Shown piece after piece: positions 19,333 through 26,582 of a DNA stretch of 34,146 nt. Under the pieces are notes generated by a model. The model saw only the letters and a program-made list of their open reading frames with translations. It did no database searches and was not told the origin of the DNA. The position numbers and the translations under genes were made by a program. This DNA comes from Beijerinckiaceae bacterium (GTDB lineage Bacteria > Pseudomonadota > Alphaproteobacteria > Rhizobiales > Beijerinckiaceae), in the NCBI GenBank assembly GCA_019747375.1, contig JAIEQX010000191.1, positions 1 through 34,146 of the forward strand, in the 5' to 3' direction. Positions within the stretch are counted from its first letter, which is position 1. The number at the start of each line of letters is the position of its first letter.

Positions 19333-19908
19333 TCACGCGTCGCCGGCGACGCGGCGCAGGCGGTCCGACAATTCGCGCGTGGAGGGAATGCGGCGGTGAT
19401 CTTCGGCCGCCCGGGCTTCGTCCTGCGCGAGATTGTCGATCATGGCCAGCAGGGCCTTTCGCATCACGGCGATTTCCTCCTCGGCGAGGCCGCTGACGGC
19501 GATGCGGTTCACCTCTTCGGCCTGAGGCACGAGCTTGTCGCGCAAGGCGCGGCCTTCCGGCGTCAGGTGGATGAACACCTGCTTGCGGTCGCCCGGCTTC
19601 TGCCGGCGCTCGACGTAGCCGAGCTTCTCCATCATACGCAAAGCCGAAAAGGTCGTGGGCTCCATGACGCCGGCCTGCTCGCTCAAGGCGCGCTGGGTGA
19701 TGCCGTCGCGATTCCAGAGGATTCGCAGGAAGGTCCAATGGCCGAAGGACACCGAATGTTCGGCGAGCCGCATTTGCAGCGCGCGGCCGAGACCGCGGCT
19801 CGCATCCTTGATGAGATGGGCGAGGCGATCGTCGGGCACGGATTCGCGCCAGTGATGCAGGATCGCCTGCGTCAGCGCCGGCGCCTTCTTGGGTGTGCGC
19901 TCAACCAT
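19333..19908 (-). CDS. MarR-family transcriptional regulator
   Basis: This 191-residue protein has a central winged helix-turn-helix: QRALSEQAGVMEPTTFSALRMMEKLGYVERR is the DNA-binding helix pair and GDRKQVFIHLTPEGRAL is the wing. The ATG at 19908 overlaps the end of the preceding dehydrogenase gene by 8 nt, so it is translationally coupled to the operon. MarR dimers bind short palindromes and release on binding phenolic or aromatic-acid ligands. The two matching palindromes at 22147-22166 and 22293-22312, in the promoter region of its own operon and of the Rieske oxygenase, are the obvious targets. A longer frame to 20046 would lie inside the upstream gene and is not used. Confidence 0.93.
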   Translation of the reverse strand: MVERTPKKAPALTQAILHHWRESVPDDRLAHLIKDASRGLGRALQMRLAEHSVSFGHWTFLRILWNRDGITQRALSEQAGVMEPTTFSALRMMEKLGYVERRQKPGDRKQVFIHLTPEGRALRDKLVPQAEEVNRIAVSGLAEEEIAVMRKALLAMIDNLAQDEARAAEDHRRIPSTRELSDRLRRVAGDA

Positions 19909-21109
19909 GCTGGCCCGTCTCCCCCGGCAGTCCGACCTGATGGCGCAGCTCGATCTCGCGCTGTTCCTGCGCGGACTGCAGGATCGCGAGGCAGACTTCC
20001 ATCGTGGCCATGCTCCACTCGCCCGAATGCAGCGGCGGCGTTCCATGCAGCACCGCGGCCACGAGTTCGTCCATCACTTCCGAACGCGGGACGCCCGGCG
20101 GCGGCAAAGCGGCGAAATCCTGGGCGAGATCGCCATAGATGCGCACGCCATCGGGAAAGGGACGCAGGTCGGCGCGTTCGCACGAGGCGATGAGGAGGCC
20201 GAACTGCTGGTGCTGGCGGCCGCTCGCCGCAGAGGCGTCGGCATAGGCGGCGCCGCCGTAGTTCTTGGCGTTCTTCAGCGCGGTTTCCTGCGCGATGTCC
20301 TTCGACTTCGCGAGCGCGGCGCGCGCAGCGCCGTAGTCGGCCGGGTTCTTCTTCAGCCCGCTCTCGGCGATCCAGCCGCAGAATTCATCCGAGTCGAAAT
20401 GGGCGTAGCCGCTGTAGGTCATGGTGGCGGAGAGCCCGTCCTCGAAGGTCAGGATGGCGTTATAGGCGCCTTCGGTCGGTCGCGCCGGATCCCAGATTCC
20501 CGTCGTGGCGCGTACGCTTTTGACGCGGCCGCCGCCGATCAGGCGGATCATCTCGACCTGGTGGGGCGCCTGGTTGTAGACGGCGCCGCCGCCCTGCCGG
20601 GTGTCGAGCTCTTCGGGCCTGCGCGGGCGATAGATGAAATCCGTGAAGTTCATGGCGGTGATCATGCGCAGCCGGCCATAGGCGCCGCCGGCGACGAGTT
20701 CGCGCGTCTTCACGATGGGAGCGTCGAAGGAATGGCTGTGGCCGACGATGACGCGCACGCCAGCGGCGCTTGCGGCGTCGATCATGGCGCGGCACTCGTC
20801 GAGGCTGAGCGCCATGGGTTTCTCGACCAGCGCATGTTTGCCGCGCGCCGCCGCGGCCGCCACCTGGGGCGCATGAAACTGATGCGGCGAGGCGATGTAG
20901 ACCGCATCGACTCCGTCATCGGCGCAGAGCGCCTCGATCGTGTCGAACGTGCGCGCGCCGAAATCCTCGGCAAAGCGCGCGCGGGCTTCCGGACGCGGAT
21001 CGAAGCCCGCGACGATGTCGATGCGCGGATCGCCCCGGAAGGTCGGGATCATGAACGAGAAGGCGCGGCCCAGCCCCGCGATCCCCAGTCTCACCTTGCG
21101 ATCGCTCAT
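19901..21109 (-). CDS. Gfo/Idh/MocA-family dehydrogenase, resembling phthalate cis-dihydrodiol dehydrogenase
   Basis: This 402-residue oxidoreductase has an N-terminal Rossmann fold (GIAGLGRA, residues 9-16), the catalytic EKP at 96-98 and a downstream His183 in NQAPHQVEM. Its length and its place beside a Rieske oxygenase and its reductase match Pht4/OphB, the phthalate 4,5-cis-dihydrodiol dehydrogenase, which also belongs to this family. It would rearomatise the cis-diol made by the oxygenase at 22343, using NAD(P)+. It follows the reductase by 21 nt and overlaps the MarR gene by 8 nt. Sugar dehydrogenases share the fold, so the assignment rests on context as well as family. Confidence 0.85.
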   Translation of the reverse strand: MSDRKVRLGIAGLGRAFSFMIPTFRGDPRIDIVAGFDPRPEARARFAEDFGARTFDTIEALCADDGVDAVYIASPHQFHAPQVAAAAARGKHALVEKPMALSLDECRAMIDAASAAGVRVIVGHSHSFDAPIVKTRELVAGGAYGRLRMITAMNFTDFIYRPRRPEELDTRQGGGAVYNQAPHQVEMIRLIGGGRVKSVRATTGIWDPARPTEGAYNAILTFEDGLSATMTYSGYAHFDSDEFCGWIAESGLKKNPADYGAARAALAKSKDIAQETALKNAKNYGGAAYADASAASGRQHQQFGLLIASCERADLRPFPDGVRIYGDLAQDFAALPPPGVPRSEVMDELVAAVLHGTPPLHSGEWSMATMEVCLAILQSAQEQREIELRHQVGLPGETGQHG

Positions 21110-21130: not shown

Positions 21131-22090
21131 TCAGACGTCTATGGTGATCTCATCGCCCAGCGCGCGCGACACGCACACCATGATGTTTTCGGGCTTCTCA
21201 TAATCGGAGAGCACGAGATCCCGGTGATCGACCTCGCCGGCGACGAGCTTCGTCCTGCACGAGCCGCAGGTGCCGCTCTCGCAGGAGCTCGGCACGACAT
21301 GGCCATTGTCGCGCAGCACTTCCAGGATGGTCTTGCCGACCGGCACTTCATAGGCGGCGCCGGATTTGGCGAGGCGCACCGTGAAAGGCTTGTCCTCCGG
21401 CTTGGTCATGGCGCCGGGCGGCGTGAAATCCTCGAAATGCACCTTGGCGGTCGACCAGTGGCCCGTCATGTCGCGCACCGCCTGCATCAGGCCGCGCGGG
21501 CCGCAGCAATAGAGATGCTGCGCGCCGGGCTTTTCCAGCACGGGCCAGAGATCGAGCGCATTGTCGGGGTTTCCCTCGTCGTGGTGGATCGTCACCATGC
21601 CGCGAAATTCGGGCTGCTTCAGCTCGTCGAGGAAGGCCGTCATGGCGGGCGTGCGCGACAGATAGTAGAGCTTGAAACGCCCCTCCCCGCGCGAGCGGAT
21701 GTGGCGGATCATCGACAGGATCGGGGTGATGCCGATGCCGCCCGCGATGAACAGATATTGCGGCGAAGGCGCGAGCGAAAAGTCATTGCGGGGCGCCTCG
21801 ACCATGATCTCGTCGCCGACCCTGGACTCGTCGATGAGGCTCACGGAGCCGCCGCGCCCGCCGACCTCGCGCTTGACCGCGATGCAGTAGCGGTCGCGCT
21901 CCTCCGGATCGTTGCAGAGCGAATATTTGCGGATCTCGCCATTGGGCACGCGCAGGGCGAGATGCGCCCCCGCGGTGAATTCCGGCAGGTCCGCGCCGTC
22001 GGGATGGCGCAACTCGAAAAATTCGATATCTTCGGCCGCGGGCTGCTTCTGCGTGATGCGCAGGGCCATCATGTCGGCTTGTTCGGACAC
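21131..22090 (-). CDS. PDR/VanB-type oxygenase reductase (FMN, NAD, C-terminal 2Fe-2S)
   Basis: This 319-residue reductase is in the phthalate dioxygenase reductase order: flavin domain (about 10-105, with the RKYSLCND motif), NAD domain (about 110-220, with FIAGGIGITPILSM and CCGPRGLM), then a plant-type ferredoxin domain. The iron-sulphur cysteines are 270, 275, 278 and 306 (SSCESGTCGSC...VC). It passes electrons from NADH to the Rieske oxygenase encoded divergently. I use the GTG at 22090, preceded 8 nt upstream by GGGGAGGAA. The in-frame ATG at 22159 would add 23 unconserved residues, and it falls inside a palindromic operator. It is the first gene of an operon with the dihydrodiol dehydrogenase and MarR. 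Confidence 0.92.
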   Translation of the reverse strand: MSEQADMMALRITQKQPAAEDIEFFELRHPDGADLPEFTAGAHLALRVPNGEIRKYSLCNDPEERDRYCIAVKREVGGRGGSVSLIDESRVGDEIMVEAPRNDFSLAPSPQYLFIAGGIGITPILSMIRHIRSRGEGRFKLYYLSRTPAMTAFLDELKQPEFRGMVTIHHDEGNPDNALDLWPVLEKPGAQHLYCCGPRGLMQAVRDMTGHWSTAKVHFEDFTPPGAMTKPEDKPFTVRLAKSGAAYEVPVGKTILEVLRDNGHVVPSSCESGTCGSCRTKLVAGEVDHRDLVLSDYEKPENIMVCVSRALGDEITIDV

Positions 22091-22146
22091 GTCGCATTCC
22101 TCCCCGCCGGGGCGCTCAAGGGGCCCGGTCCAGACGTCTTCACCCG

Positions 22147-22166
22147 GATACTTAGACATCTAATAA
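22147..22166. promoter_or_regulatory. Palindromic operator A (reductase side), probable MarR site
   Basis: GATA followed by CTTAGA-N2-TCTAAT and AA. The six-base arms are complementary except for the last base. It lies 57 nt before the reductase GTG. The same pattern recurs at 22293-22312, differing only at the two central bases and one arm base across 20 positions. Two such sites in one 252-bp divergent region, with a MarR gene in one arm, strongly suggest a shared operator. Confidence 0.78.
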
Positions 22167-22342: not shown

Positions 22343-23650
22343 ATGCTCACCAGACAGGAAAACGATCTTCTGTGCCGTGTCGAGGGCGATGCTCCCATGG
22401 GCAAGATCATGCGCAGCCACTGGATCCCGGCCTGCCTGATCGAGGAAGTGCCGGAGCCCGATGGCGACCCCCTGAAGGTGCGCCTGCTCGGCGAGGATCT
22501 CGTGGTGTTCCGCGACACGGACGGGCGCGTCGGCGTGCTCGACGAAATGTGCCCGCATCGTCGCGCCTCGCTGGTGTTCGGGCGCAACGAGGAATGCGGA
22601 CTGCGCTGCCTCTATCACGGCTGGAAGATCGACGTGGACGGCAATGTCGTCGAAATGTCGTCCGAGCCGGCCGGCAGCGGCTTCGCCGAGAAGGTGAAGC
22701 ACAAATCCTATCCGGTGCGCGAAGGCGCGGGCTTCGTGTGGACCTATATGGGCCCGGCCGAGGAAATGCCGGAATTCGCCCCGCCGGTGTTCCAGCCGAC
22801 GCCCGACACGCGGATCGCCATCGCGAAGATCCACATCGACTGCAACTGGGCGCAGATTCTCGAAGGCGCGATCGATTCCGCCCACAGCTCCAGCCTGCAT
22901 TCCTCCGACATGGTGCCGGCGCGCGTGGCCGGGGCGGAGGCCACGGACGTCAACTGGCTGCGCCCGTCCACCGACAAGGCGCCGCGCATGCAGGTGCAGC
23001 TGACGAGCTTCGGGTTCCGCTACGCGGCGATCCGTCGTCCGATCAACAATCCGAACACGCATGACTACATCCGCACGACCCTGTTCATCGCGCCCTATTC
23101 GGTGCTGATCCCGCCCAACAACATGTACAATGTGGCGATCCTGCACGTCCCCACGGACGACACCCATACGGCGTTTCACTTCATCGCCTTCGGGGGGGCG
23201 ACGACGCCCAGCACCGAGGAATGGCGCAAGTTCCTGCACGCGCAGGTCGGCATCGACGTCGACAAGCACTTCCGCAAGGTGCGCACGCGCGCCAACAATT
23301 ACCTGCAGGACCGCAAGGCGATGAAGCTCGGGAATTTCACCGGCATTCCGGGCATCCCGAACCAGGACATCGTGATGTGGGAAACCATGGGCCCGATCGC
23401 CGACCGCACGTTCGACCGGCTCGGCGCCAGCGATCTGGCGATCGTCGAATTCCGCAAGCAGATGGTGGCGGCGGCGCGGACCAAACAGGAGGGCGGACCG
23501 TCGATCGGGACGGTCGAGCCGCGGATTCCGCAAAACCGGCTGATGTCCTTCGAGGGCGTCGTGCCGAAGACGACCGACTGGCGCGTCATGGGCGTGACGC
23601 CGGAAGAGATGGCGCATGGCGCGCAGCCGGCCACGACCGCGGCGGAATAG
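22343..23650 (+). CDS. Rieske aromatic ring-hydroxylating oxygenase, phthalate 4,5-dioxygenase-like
   Basis: This 435-residue oxygenase subunit has its Rieske cluster ligands at Cys70-x-His72 and Cys89-x2-His92 (CPHRRAS...CLYHGW). The mononuclear iron region EGAIDSAHSSSLH supplies Asp178, His181 and His186. The length and the NWAQILEGAIDSAH pattern place it with the phthalate 4,5-dioxygenase/vanillate demethylase group of single-subunit (alpha-only) oxygenases. The GGAGGAA ribosome binding site precedes the ATG at 22343. The reductase and a Pht4-like dehydrogenase are divergently encoded, which favours true cis-dihydroxylation over demethylation. The two following genes, EutA-like and bicupin, are on the same strand. 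The substrate is probably an aromatic or heteroaromatic carboxylate. Confidence 0.93.
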   Translation: MLTRQENDLLCRVEGDAPMGKIMRSHWIPACLIEEVPEPDGDPLKVRLLGEDLVVFRDTDGRVGVLDEMCPHRRASLVFGRNEECGLRCLYHGWKIDVDGNVVEMSSEPAGSGFAEKVKHKSYPVREGAGFVWTYMGPAEEMPEFAPPVFQPTPDTRIAIAKIHIDCNWAQILEGAIDSAHSSSLHSSDMVPARVAGAEATDVNWLRPSTDKAPRMQVQLTSFGFRYAAIRRPINNPNTHDYIRTTLFIAPYSVLIPPNNMYNVAILHVPTDDTHTAFHFIAFGGATTPSTEEWRKFLHAQVGIDVDKHFRKVRTRANNYLQDRKAMKLGNFTGIPGIPNQDIVMWETMGPIADRTFDRLGASDLAIVEFRKQMVAAARTKQEGGPSIGTVEPRIPQNRLMSFEGVVPKTTDWRVMGVTPEEMAHGAQPATTAAE

Positions 23651-23753: not shown

Positions 23754-25259
23754 ATGCACGACCTCGATGAAGCCCATGACCACGCCGGCATGTCGGAGGA
23801 AGACAAGGCCGCCATGGCGGCCTGGATCTGGAGCCAGGAAACCGTCGAACTGAAGACGATCGGCATCGACATCGGCAGCTCGACGTCGCATCTCCTGTTC
23901 GCCAAGGTCACCCTGCAGCGGCAGTCGCAGGGACTTTCGAGCCGCTTTCTGGTGACGCGCCGCGACGTTCTGTGGCGCTCGCCCATCATGCTGACGCCAT
24001 TCCTGCCGAACGGCACCATCGACGCGCGCAGCCTGGAAGATTTTATCCGCGGCGCCTATGCGGCGGCCGGCTTCCGCCGCGAGGACGTGGACACGGGCGC
24101 GGTGATCCTGACCGGCGAGGCGATCAAGCGCACCAATGCGCGCGCCATCGACGAATTGTTTGCTGAAGAAGCCGGAAAATTCGTCTGCGCCACCGCCGGC
24201 CACAAGCTCGAATGCACGCTGGCGGCGCATGGATCGGGCGCGGTCGCGCTGTCCAAGGCGCAGGACGCCGTGGTGCTGCACATCGACATCGGCGGCGGCA
24301 CCACGAAACTGTCGCTCATCGACCGCGGCGTCATCCGCAGCGTCGCGGCCTTCGCGGTCGGCGGGCGCCTGCTCGCGCATGACGGCCGCGAGGGCTGGAC
24401 CCGCGTCGACGAATCCGCGCAACTCGTCGCCGACGAACTCGGCCTTTCGACGACGCCTGGCGCGCTGTCGAACCTGATGACCCGCAAGAAGATCGCCGAA
24501 CGGCTGGCCGATATCGCGGTCGACCAGATCACCGGCGCCAAGCTCGACGCTCTGGGGCAGAAGCTCGAACTGACCGAACCGCTCGACCGCAGCCTGACGC
24601 CCACGATCCTGACGTTTTCCGGCGGCGTGTCGGAGTATATTTTCGGCACGGAAGAAGCCGAATATGGCGACATCGCCAAGCTTCTGGCCGCGGCGATCCG
24701 CACCAAGCTCGCGGCGCGTTCGAGCCTGCCGATCAGCGATCCGGGCAATCGCATCCGCGCAACCGTGATCGGCGCCTCGCAGTTCACCGTGCAGGTCAGC
24801 GGCAAGACGATCTATCTTCCGCCCGACGGATCGCTGCCGGTGCACAATGTGCCGGTCATCCAGGTCGGCATGGACCTGTCGGACGACATCGCGCCCGAGG
24901 TCGTCACCAAGCGCATCCTCGAAAAGATCGCGCAGCTCGATCTCGAACCTTCGGACCGCATGGCCATTGCATTTCCATGGCATGGCGACCCGGAATACAG
25001 CCGCCTCGCTTCCGCGGCGCGCGCCATCCGGGATGCGGTCGCGCCCGAGGGACGCCGCAAGAACCTGCTGCTGATGATGATCGACGGCGATGTCGGCCGC
25101 ACGATGGGCCGGCTCCTTTCCGACGAGGTGGGACTCGACGGACCCCTCGTCTCGATCGACGGCGTGCAGTTGCAGGAGCTCGATTATGTGGATGTCGGCG
25201 AATTGATCTCGCCGCCCGGCGTCGTTCCGGTCGTCATCAAGTCGCTGCTCTTCTCATGA
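23754..25259 (+). CDS. EutA-like ASKHA-fold ATPase (ethanolamine ammonia-lyase reactivase family)
   Basis: This 501-residue protein is homologous over its length to EutA, the ATPase that exchanges damaged cobalamin on adenosylcobalamin-dependent ethanolamine ammonia-lyase. The actin/Hsp70-type phosphate loops are visible: GIDIGSST at 37-44 and HIDIGGGTTKLS at 176-187. The EutA blocks VILTGEAIKRTNAR at 117-130 and VGGRLL also appear. A 30-residue His/Asp/Glu-rich N-terminal extension precedes the fold. EutB, EutC and every other eut gene are absent from the window, as is any recognisable B12 enzyme. The gene follows the Rieske oxygenase by 103 nt and precedes the bicupin by 54 nt, with a hairpin between. 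It may reactivate an enzyme encoded elsewhere, or have been recruited to a new client in this pathway. Confidence 0.88.
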   Translation: MHDLDEAHDHAGMSEEDKAAMAAWIWSQETVELKTIGIDIGSSTSHLLFAKVTLQRQSQGLSSRFLVTRRDVLWRSPIMLTPFLPNGTIDARSLEDFIRGAYAAAGFRREDVDTGAVILTGEAIKRTNARAIDELFAEEAGKFVCATAGHKLECTLAAHGSGAVALSKAQDAVVLHIDIGGGTTKLSLIDRGVIRSVAAFAVGGRLLAHDGREGWTRVDESAQLVADELGLSTTPGALSNLMTRKKIAERLADIAVDQITGAKLDALGQKLELTEPLDRSLTPTILTFSGGVSEYIFGTEEAEYGDIAKLLAAAIRTKLAARSSLPISDPGNRIRATVIGASQFTVQVSGKTIYLPPDGSLPVHNVPVIQVGMDLSDDIAPEVVTKRILEKIAQLDLEPSDRMAIAFPWHGDPEYSRLASAARAIRDAVAPEGRRKNLLLMMIDGDVGRTMGRLLSDEVGLDGPLVSIDGVQLQELDYVDVGELISPPGVVPVVIKSLLFS

Positions 25260-25264
25260 CGGAT

Positions 25265-25286
25265 CGCCCGGCCGAAGAGCCGGGCG
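25265..25286. other. Intercistronic hairpin between EutA-like and bicupin genes
   Basis: Arms CGCCCGGC and GCCGGGCG form an 8-bp GC stem with a 6-nt loop, 5 nt past the stop codon. No T run follows; a GGGAGG ribosome binding site for the bicupin comes next. It is likely an mRNA-stability or partial-termination element. Confidence 0.5.
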
Positions 25287-25313
25287 GCCAAACAGCAAAA
25301 ACGGGAGGTTTGC

Positions 25314-26423
25314 ATGAGCACACAGGAACAGCCGCGCTATGGCGTGGATCCGTATCTCGACTGGGTCGCGCGGGAAGGCCTGCCGGTCACCGAGCATTAC
25401 GGCATCGACCTCTTCTCGGTCGAGACCAAGCCCTGGGCGCGCTACGGCGTGAAGGGCGCGGCCGTGCACCTGAAGGGCCGCGGCGACTTTTCGAACATGT
25501 TCCTGTTCGACATCGGACCGGGACAATCGACGACGCCGCAGCGGCACCTCTACGAAGACGTCATCTATGTGCTCGAGGGATCGGGTTCGACGCAGGTCGA
25601 GTTCGCGGACGGCACGAAGCGCAGCTTCGAATGGGGGCCGAAGAGCCTGTTCGCGATTCCGCTCAACGCCAGGCATCGCCACTTCAACGGCAGCGGCCGT
25701 GAGCGCGCGCTGCTGGTCTCCACCACCAACCTGCCGATGATCCTCAACGTGTTTCACGACGAGAGCTTCGTGTTCGGCACCGACCGCGACTTCATGGAGC
25801 GCGCCGGCAAGCAGGGCTATTTCGCCGGCGAGGGCGACCTCATCACGGTGCGGCCCGGAAACCATATGTGGGAGACGAATTTCGTCCCCGATCTGGCGGC
25901 GATCGAACTCAAGTCCTGGGGCGACCGCGGCGCCGGCGGCACCAACATCATGTTCGTGCTGGCCGACGGAATCATGCACGCGCATATTTCCGAAATGCCG
26001 GTCGGCACCTACAAGAAGGGCCACAAGCACGGGCCGAGCTTCCATGTGATGTGCGTCACCGGACATGGCTATTCGTTGCTTTGGTATCCGCACGAGAAGG
26101 ATTTCATCCGCATCGACTGGAAGCACGGCACGGTGTTTCCGCCGGCGGACCAGCAGTTCCATCAGCATTTCAACACGAGCCAGGCGCCCGCCCGCTATCT
26201 GGCGACCGCTGTCGGCGGCCTGCGTTATCCCACCATGCTGGCGCAGCGGCGCTCGCTGCTCGGCGTGAATGGCGAGAAAGGCGCGGTGTCGCTCTCGATC
26301 AAGGAAGGCGGCGACCAGATCGAGTATGAAGATCAGGATCCGCGCATCCATCGCGAGTGGCTGGAAGAAATGCGCAAGAACGACGTGACGCCGAAGATGG
26401 ACAAGTTCAAGGTCGCTTGCTGA
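25314..26423 (+). CDS. Bicupin protein linked to the EutA-like gene
   Basis: This 369-residue protein has two cupin barrels. The first (about 55-140) has H78, E81, H121 and H123 in RHLYEDVIYVLEG and ARHRHFN. The second (about 205-300) has H237, H239, H244, H283 and H285 in KKGHKHGPSFHVMCVTGHG and FHQHFN. Both barrels could bind a metal. There is no signal peptide. Bicupins include gentisate-type dioxygenases, oxalate decarboxylases and mannose-6-phosphate isomerases; none fits well. I recall that proteins of this type are sometimes labelled ethanolamine ammonia-lyase-activating protein, which I cannot check and which may only reflect neighbourhood. A strong GGGAGG site precedes the ATG, and a strong terminator follows. 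It may be a dioxygenase or decarboxylase of the pathway, or the client or partner of the EutA-like ATPase. Confidence 0.82.
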   Translation: MSTQEQPRYGVDPYLDWVAREGLPVTEHYGIDLFSVETKPWARYGVKGAAVHLKGRGDFSNMFLFDIGPGQSTTPQRHLYEDVIYVLEGSGSTQVEFADGTKRSFEWGPKSLFAIPLNARHRHFNGSGRERALLVSTTNLPMILNVFHDESFVFGTDRDFMERAGKQGYFAGEGDLITVRPGNHMWETNFVPDLAAIELKSWGDRGAGGTNIMFVLADGIMHAHISEMPVGTYKKGHKHGPSFHVMCVTGHGYSLLWYPHEKDFIRIDWKHGTVFPPADQQFHQHFNTSQAPARYLATAVGGLRYPTMLAQRRSLLGVNGEKGAVSLSIKEGGDQIEYEDQDPRIHREWLEEMRKNDVTPKMDKFKVAC

Positions 26424-26455: not shown

Positions 26456-26490
26456 GATCCCCGGAACGCGCGTTCCGGGGATCTTTTTTT
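26456..26490 (+). terminator. Strong rho-independent terminator after the bicupin gene
   Basis: A 28-bp perfect palindrome (26456-26483, arms GATCCCCGGAAC / GTTCCGGGGATC around CGCG) is followed by seven T residues (26484-26490). It lies 33 nt past the bicupin stop codon and ends the oxygenase-EutA-bicupin transcript. It is the only textbook intrinsic terminator I found in the window. Confidence 0.95.
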
Positions 26491-26582
26491 GGCGTTGGTT
26501 CCGGTGGGGTTTCGCCCCTACACTGCCTGCATAATCCGCGCCCGGCCCCGGCCAGAGACAGCGGAACAGCGGGAGGACGGCC

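Follow-up and report, generated by a model that had tools for sequence, protein, structure and literature searches.

The EutA-like ATPase gene and the bicupin gene that lie side by side in a stretch of DNA from Beijerinckiaceae bacterium probably encode an undescribed pair of helper and client proteins. The stretch, referred to here as the window, comprises 34,146 nt (assembly GCA_019747375.1, contig JAIEQX010000191.1, positions 1-34,146 of the forward strand). The ATPase (501 aa, positions 23754-25259, + strand) falls into a bicupin-linked clade of EutA-like proteins, and the bicupin (369 aa, positions 25314-26423, + strand) is its conserved partner. We suggest, with about even confidence, that both genes form a dedicated two-gene unit, in which the ATPase serves as an ATP-driven activase or metal-loading factor for the bicupin. 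Such a factor is the simplest reading that jointly explains the pairing of the genes, the intact ATP site, the HxH tail of the ATPase and the invariant histidine site of the cupin. The fold and family of EutA are known, and it is the branch and its partner that are new. A search of the open-access literature found no description of an EutA-like protein joined to a cupin.

Pairing of the ATPase and bicupin genes across genomes

The EutA-like ATPase and the bicupin are encoded together in a wide range of bacteria. A public genome collection was scanned with an alignment of six EutA-like proteins, and the best 80 of 528 loci were retained. These loci stem from alpha-, beta- and gammaproteobacteria, actinomycetes, Chloroflexota and a few other groups. 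A bicupin gene is located within 2 kb of the EutA-like gene in 71 of the 80 loci, and within 500 bases in 68 of these. Three of the nine loci lacking a bicupin are cut by a contig end (L094, L098, L100), and the six others are L104, L105, L108, L111, L116 and L117. Across 78 EutA-bicupin pairs, the bicupin is found equally often downstream (39) and upstream (39), with both genes on the same strand in 76. The presence of both gene orders, mostly on one strand, indicates that the link between the two genes has outlived rearrangement. At one locus (L080, 2015-3190), the bicupin beside the EutA-like gene is broken by two in-frame stop codons, which could reflect decay or a sequencing error.

Whole genomes and independent samples show the same association. 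Starting from 50 of the 80 loci, 49 whole genomes were covered; all of them encode a bicupin and an EutA, and five encode EutB. Among 150 genomes of the order, a bicupin and a full-length EutA occur in the same two genomes, one of which is the window's genome (Fisher p = 9e-5). Weak matches to the EutA model (up to 33 bits over a short stretch) are found in most of these 150 genomes; these were regarded as different ASKHA proteins and left out of the count. A full-length EutA is encoded by six of 398 genomes of the phylum. In five of these it sits beside EutB and a bicupin is lacking, whereas the sixth, that of the window, encodes a bicupin but has no EutB. The genome samples are draws, and at most three to five candidates per genome were scored in the phylum survey and in a survey of the family of genome G173. 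The latter survey started from the bicupin and covered 346 genomes, of which three hold five bicupins, all five adjoining an EutA-like gene. As G173 was already a known centre, the fresh evidence amounts to three out of three bicupins in two genomes. Plasmid records with a near-full-length bicupin likewise have an adjoining EutA-like gene in four of four cases, and a search of viral contigs with the bicupin returned no match. In a phage collection, three short unannotated records labelled as phage (H31-H33) encode EutA-like sequences 30-37% identical to the window protein, and these might be host DNA. Distances among EutAs and among cupins are correlated (Mantel r = 0.70, reached in 0 of 2000 permutations). 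This was not used as proof, because shared ancestry alone can produce such a correlation and the two EutAs of locus L076 were paired with the same nearest cupin.

A separate EutA clade without neighbouring EutB or EutC

The ATPase of the window belongs to the EutA family by profile. The Pfam EutA match is full length (residues 32-500, profile positions 2-474 of 475, 375.7 bits). The best NCBIfam EutA score of 304.5 does not reach the equivalog cut-off of 598. The genome encodes three full-length EutAs, the window copy and two on contig C370. The core ATP-site motifs are common to the clade and to EutB-linked EutAs in an alignment of 91 against 11 sequences. We take these motifs to be the phosphate-1 loop (DIGSST, 23868-23885, + strand), the phosphate-2 loop (DIGGGTTK, 24285-24308, + strand) and the adenosine motif (SGGV region, 24618-24629, + strand), the last of which is near-invariant in both groups. 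Two positions at the loops differ. The residue after the phosphate-1 loop is H46 in 88 of the 91 clade members and Q in 10 of the 11 EutB-linked EutAs, and K185 in the phosphate-2 loop is present in 91 of 91 against N in 11 of 11. The AlphaFold2 model has a predicted local distance difference test (pLDDT) score of 88.8, and Foldseek matched it to the ASKHA-type proteins Ppx/GppA, 2-hydroxyglutaryl-CoA dehydratase component A, PilM, MreB and EutJ. None of the sequence matches in the PDB is named EutA.

The clade stands apart from the EutAs that accompany ethanolamine ammonia-lyase. A 102-sequence tree separates the 11 EutB-linked EutAs from the other 91, including that of the window, with a Shimodaira-Hasegawa-like approximate likelihood ratio (SH-aLRT) support of 100. 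The tree was built by a quick method with long branches flagged, and it comprises 91 of the 93 clade sequences and all 11 EutB-linked ones; an EutA beside EutB at L172 was not recovered into that set. EutB is present at all 11 control loci and a bicupin at none of them. As the earlier note on this DNA had stated, the gene has no eutB or eutC at its side. EutB has no match in the window's genome (G000, 87.9% complete), and EutB and EutC are found at none of the 80 loci, with control locus L045 positive for both. The same note had named strict co-occurrence with eutBC elsewhere in the genomes, together with a lack of interaction with the bicupin, as evidence against a new client. Such co-occurrence was not seen in the genome survey, with EutB in five of 49 genomes and none of the listed EutAs in those five sharing a contig with EutB (15 of 16 EutAs, one of G150 being unlisted). 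EutBC was thus rejected as the client, given the lack of an EutB match in the window's genome and of EutB and EutC at all 80 loci, the low EutB count in the whole genomes and the split seen across the phylum.

Two observations concern the labelling of clade members. The Phyllobacterium locus L043 (14001-15506, NZ_CP104971.1) is annotated as 'ethanolamine ammonia-lyase reactivating factor EutA' and adjoins a bicupin, with no EutBC annotated in the 29.5 kb shown. This annotation is probably misnamed, as probably are others of this branch carrying the same label. The EutA-like gene of L111, on a contig labelled Flavobacteriales TMED123, nests in the tree among genes labelled as alphaproteobacterial, and the contig might be mis-binned.

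A histidine-containing tail on the ATPase

An N-terminal extension of the ATPase precedes the ATPase domain (residues 1-31, 23754-23846, + strand). The His/Asp/Glu-rich character described for it earlier is real and recurs in relatives. The alignment places an HD...HxH motif at residues 2-10 (H2, D3, H8 and H10; 23757-23783, + strand), which is a candidate metal-binding tail. Of 93 bicupin-linked clade sequences, 81 have an HxH before the ATPase domain, as against none of the 11 EutB-linked EutAs. This count is based on the open frame preceding the ATPase motif, to a maximum of 60 residues, with start codons taken as read; in L067, at a contig edge, the ATPase motif could not be placed. H2 and H8 are each kept in 78 of 91 aligned clade members, and the EutB-linked rows have a gap or R there. 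Residues 1-11 are modelled with pLDDT below 50. The tail would therefore be flexible yet conserved, as expected of a binding tail. A conserved His-containing segment is a criterion for metallochaperone NTPases, and the window protein carries one. A very His-rich C-terminal tail is also seen in two relatives, encoded on contig C370 of the window's genome and in G058. The HxH tail suggests that the ATPase could load the bicupin with metal.

The bicupin and its predicted metal site

The bicupin has a Pfam Cupin_2 match in its N-terminal half, and the presence of two cupin domains is supported by the AlphaFold2 model (mean pLDDT 94.3) and by PDB fold matches. The best folds are two-domain cupins such as vicilins, MncA and oxalate decarboxylase, with template modelling (TM) scores of 0.41-0.52 among the 50 matches listed. 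At the sequence level, gentisate dioxygenase 3bu7 gives a weak match (29.5 bits) to a portion of the C-terminal half. The sole NCBIfam match is to a 5-aminosalicylate 1,2-dioxygenase model, at 28.1 bits against a cut-off of 650, and no equivalog was passed. EutQ is the cupin of eut operons, and a relationship to it was rejected as the bicupin has no Pfam EutQ match. Weak HMMER hits of the bicupin profile on prion chains were attributed to chance.

The earlier view of two possible metal sites has to be narrowed to one. The C-terminal cupin carries an HxH (H237 and H239, 26022-26030, + strand) and a second His motif (H283 and H285, 26160-26168, + strand), both of them invariant across the 49 bicupins aligned. 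Conservation is lower in the N-terminal cupin, with H78 and E81 in 44 of the 49, H123 in 27 and H121 in 18. As the invariant histidines are confined to the C-terminal cupin and the second His motif of the N-terminal cupin is not kept, a single metal site is predicted. The likely candidate is the three-His set of H237, H239 and H283.

A possible mechanism and the evidence weighing on it

We propose that the bicupin is a metal-dependent enzyme, probably an oxygenase, in the breakdown of organic and often aromatic acids, with its metal held in the C-terminal cupin. The EutA-like protein would bind the bicupin and keep it active. ATP binding and hydrolysis might open the bicupin, much as EutA opens ethanolamine ammonia-lyase for a cofactor swap. 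The correct metal could then enter, or a wrong or oxidised metal could leave, and the flexible HD...HxH tail might hold the metal or hand it over. A broader version seems possible, though we hold it with less than even confidence. The ATPase would then be the first ASKHA-type metal insertase or reactivase, which lost its link to B12 enzymes, gained the metal-holding HD...HxH tail, and now serves solely to load and repair a large undescribed family of metal-dependent bicupin oxygenases in proteobacteria, actinomycetes and Chloroflexota, with as many as 31 bicupin copies in a single genome. Should a branch of EutA serve a metalloenzyme independent of B12, reactivation of this kind would extend further than has been assumed, and some cupins, at the least, would have an ATP-driven helper of their own. 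Bicupins expressed alone may then yield inactive protein.

Several observations weigh against a dedicated activase or metal-loading factor. The 80 loci do not count as independent samples, being the closest to the query and containing near-copies. On other contigs of the window's genome, five additional bicupins (L009-L013) have no EutA in their flanks, which extend up to about 1500 bases a side. Ten of the 91 clade members in the tree lack a bicupin within 2 kb and were not classed as contig-edge cases, including both copies on C370. The HxH motif was not seen in 12 of 93 clade sequences, and the tail is thus not indispensable. Five of these 12 come from one sub-branch, in which four adjoin a bicupin, and the others are L071, which lies beside a bicupin, four permease loci and two sequences cut by a contig end. 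Finally, a NicO-family permease as a neighbour speaks for a link to metal, but the five loci with a NicO relative have no bicupin, which ties metal to the ATPase rather than to the bicupin.

The permease and C370 loci illustrate how the arrangement varies. At L105 (9977-12259), L108, L111 and L116, the EutA-like gene is flanked by genes for a UbiD decarboxylase and a NicO-family permease, and a bicupin is lacking. The permease has an HX4DH motif and a His-rich loop. It directly follows the EutA-like gene in these four of 80 loci, and a relative is found farther off in a fifth (L104). A second client or a metal link is possible at the UbiD/NicO loci. The genomes of L105, L108 and L116 (G191, G192 and G195) encode six bicupins each elsewhere. 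Contig C370 (L005, 11065-19905) carries two divergent, back-to-back EutA-like genes and, at a distance of 3-5 kb, a tandem pair of bicupins; an ABC transporter gene lies in between. The tandem bicupins are 44% and 39% identical to the window bicupin and 77-79% identical to each other.

The main alternative is a two-component enzyme, in which the ASKHA subunit would phosphorylate a substrate with ATP and the bicupin would complete the reaction. Such phosphorylation is ascribed to the HyuA-type subunits of caprolactamase, 5-oxoprolinase and acetophenone carboxylase. The ASKHA fold of the EutA-like protein is compatible with such a role, the pairs sit among genes for substrate uptake and catabolism, and HyuA/HyuB-type genes are present in the window as well. 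Copy numbers speak for both sides. Bicupins and EutAs are equal in number in 18 of the 49 genomes and correlated overall (Spearman 0.76). However, the bicupins are in excess in 27 of these genomes and fewer in four, which tells against strict one-to-one pairing. Studied relatives of the EutA type are also reactivases rather than kinases, and a flexible His-containing tail would have no obvious role in a two-component enzyme. We consider this alternative rather unlikely.

Genomic context and further alternatives

In the window, a run of three genes on the + strand leads from a Rieske oxygenase through the EutA-like ATPase to the bicupin and ends at a terminator, as seen from the open reading frames, Pfam matches and a terminator scan. 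The placement of the gene between oxygenase and bicupin in a unit closed by a terminator, as described earlier, is thus borne out. The Rieske [2Fe-2S] oxygenase is of the LigXa_C type (22343-23650, + strand; Pfam Rieske and LigXa_C). The intrinsic terminator (26456-26491, + strand) has a stem-loop at 26456-26483 with a 12-pair stem, a 4-base loop and a T-run. A simple scan found five terminator-like sites in the region against a shuffle mean of 3.7, and this site has the longest stem. Divergent to the Rieske gene are, by Pfam, a Fer2/FAD/NAD reductase (21134-22159, - strand) and, farther upstream, a Gfo/Idh/MocA oxidoreductase (19904-21109, - strand). The Rieske oxygenase and these two proteins are optional neighbours. 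Further genes encode an FAD monooxygenase, a glyoxalase/dioxygenase-superfamily protein, a dienelactone hydrolase, an isochorismatase, a short-chain dehydrogenase/reductase (SDR), TctA and TctC transport proteins, and IclR and AraC regulators. Overall, the window has the look of a catabolic island.

The EutA-like and bicupin genes form a constant core among changing neighbours. Relatives of the Rieske protein are found at 22 of the 80 loci (10 within 3 kb), of the reductase at 13, of the Gfo/Idh/MocA protein at 17, of TctC at 31, of TctA at 24, of UbiD at 14 and of TerC at 3. A scan of 98 neighbour proteins identified major facilitator superfamily (MFS) transporters (8), IclR regulators (6), class II aldolases (3), amidohydrolases (3) and FAA hydrolases (2) among the 25 commonest of 72 families. 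The neighbours vary by locus and suggest that organic acids, often aromatic ones, are taken up and degraded. The presence of TerC speaks for metal loading, as this family has been tied to enzyme metalation according to a portion of PMC10246235. A catabolic island raises the question of whether the two genes are associated for regulatory reasons, or through the clustering of catabolic genes, without any contact between their products. That explanation is improbable, as the neighbours differ between loci while the pair persists across several phyla and in both gene orders.

The EutA-like protein might still reactivate a B12 enzyme, acting in trans on EutBC or on another client. The full-length Pfam match and the five genomes with EutB are in favour, but EutB is unmatched in the other 44 of the 49 genomes and in that of the window, and the clade is separate from the EutAs linked to EutB. 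The neighbour families examined, which include the 25 commonest but are not a full survey, contain no B12 or radical enzyme. Many EutBC enzymes also seem to do without a full-length EutA, as 74 of 79 phylum genomes with EutB have none among at most three EutA candidates scored per genome. A retained B12 role is therefore very unlikely.

The faintest prospect is that the ATPase activates the Rieske oxygenase, which is adjacent in the window and has relatives at some loci, but 58 of the 80 loci have no such relative, against a bicupin at 71. The oxygenase was accordingly rejected as an obligate partner. The earlier note had proposed a new client and named both the bicupin and the oxygenase; the first has held up as the conserved partner, at the loci and in 49 of 49 genomes, whereas the second was not supported.

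Comparison with known systems

HyuA-type subunits are ASKHA-type ATPases. Those of caprolactamase and acetophenone carboxylase resemble the window ATPase in having a partner gene, but the window pair belongs to different Pfam families and the partners differ. HypB and UreG, NTP-driven metal chaperones with His-rich stretches, are G3E GTPases. The window ATPase resembles them as a nucleotide-binding protein encoded beside a likely metalloprotein gene, and it too belongs to a group in which a flexible stretch containing His is often present. Unlike them, the window ATPase has an ASKHA fold and its client would be a cupin. HypB-type nickel chaperones consume nucleotide in metal insertion, as set out in part of PMC4192464. 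The window bicupin has two cupin domains in common with gentisate 1,2-dioxygenase, MncA and oxalate decarboxylase, and its top folds are bicupins. The iron of gentisate dioxygenase sits in the N-terminal cupin, whereas the invariant His site of the window bicupin is in the C-terminal one.

Reactivating ATPases of the EutA and diol-dehydratase kind are known as helpers of B12 enzymes. EutA (PF06277) is the closest known system, with a full-length Pfam match and near-invariant ATP-site residues in common. On EutBC, EutA exchanges adenosylcobalamin (AdoCbl) for Co(II)Cbl, so that an inactive cofactor is swapped for an active one, as covered in a section of PMC9426561. The window ATPase differs from EutA in having no EutBC partner, in scoring below the NCBIfam cut-off and in belonging to a separate clade. 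This clade is further set apart from EutB-linked EutAs by the HxH before the ATPase domain and by H46 and K185, where the latter mostly have Q and N.

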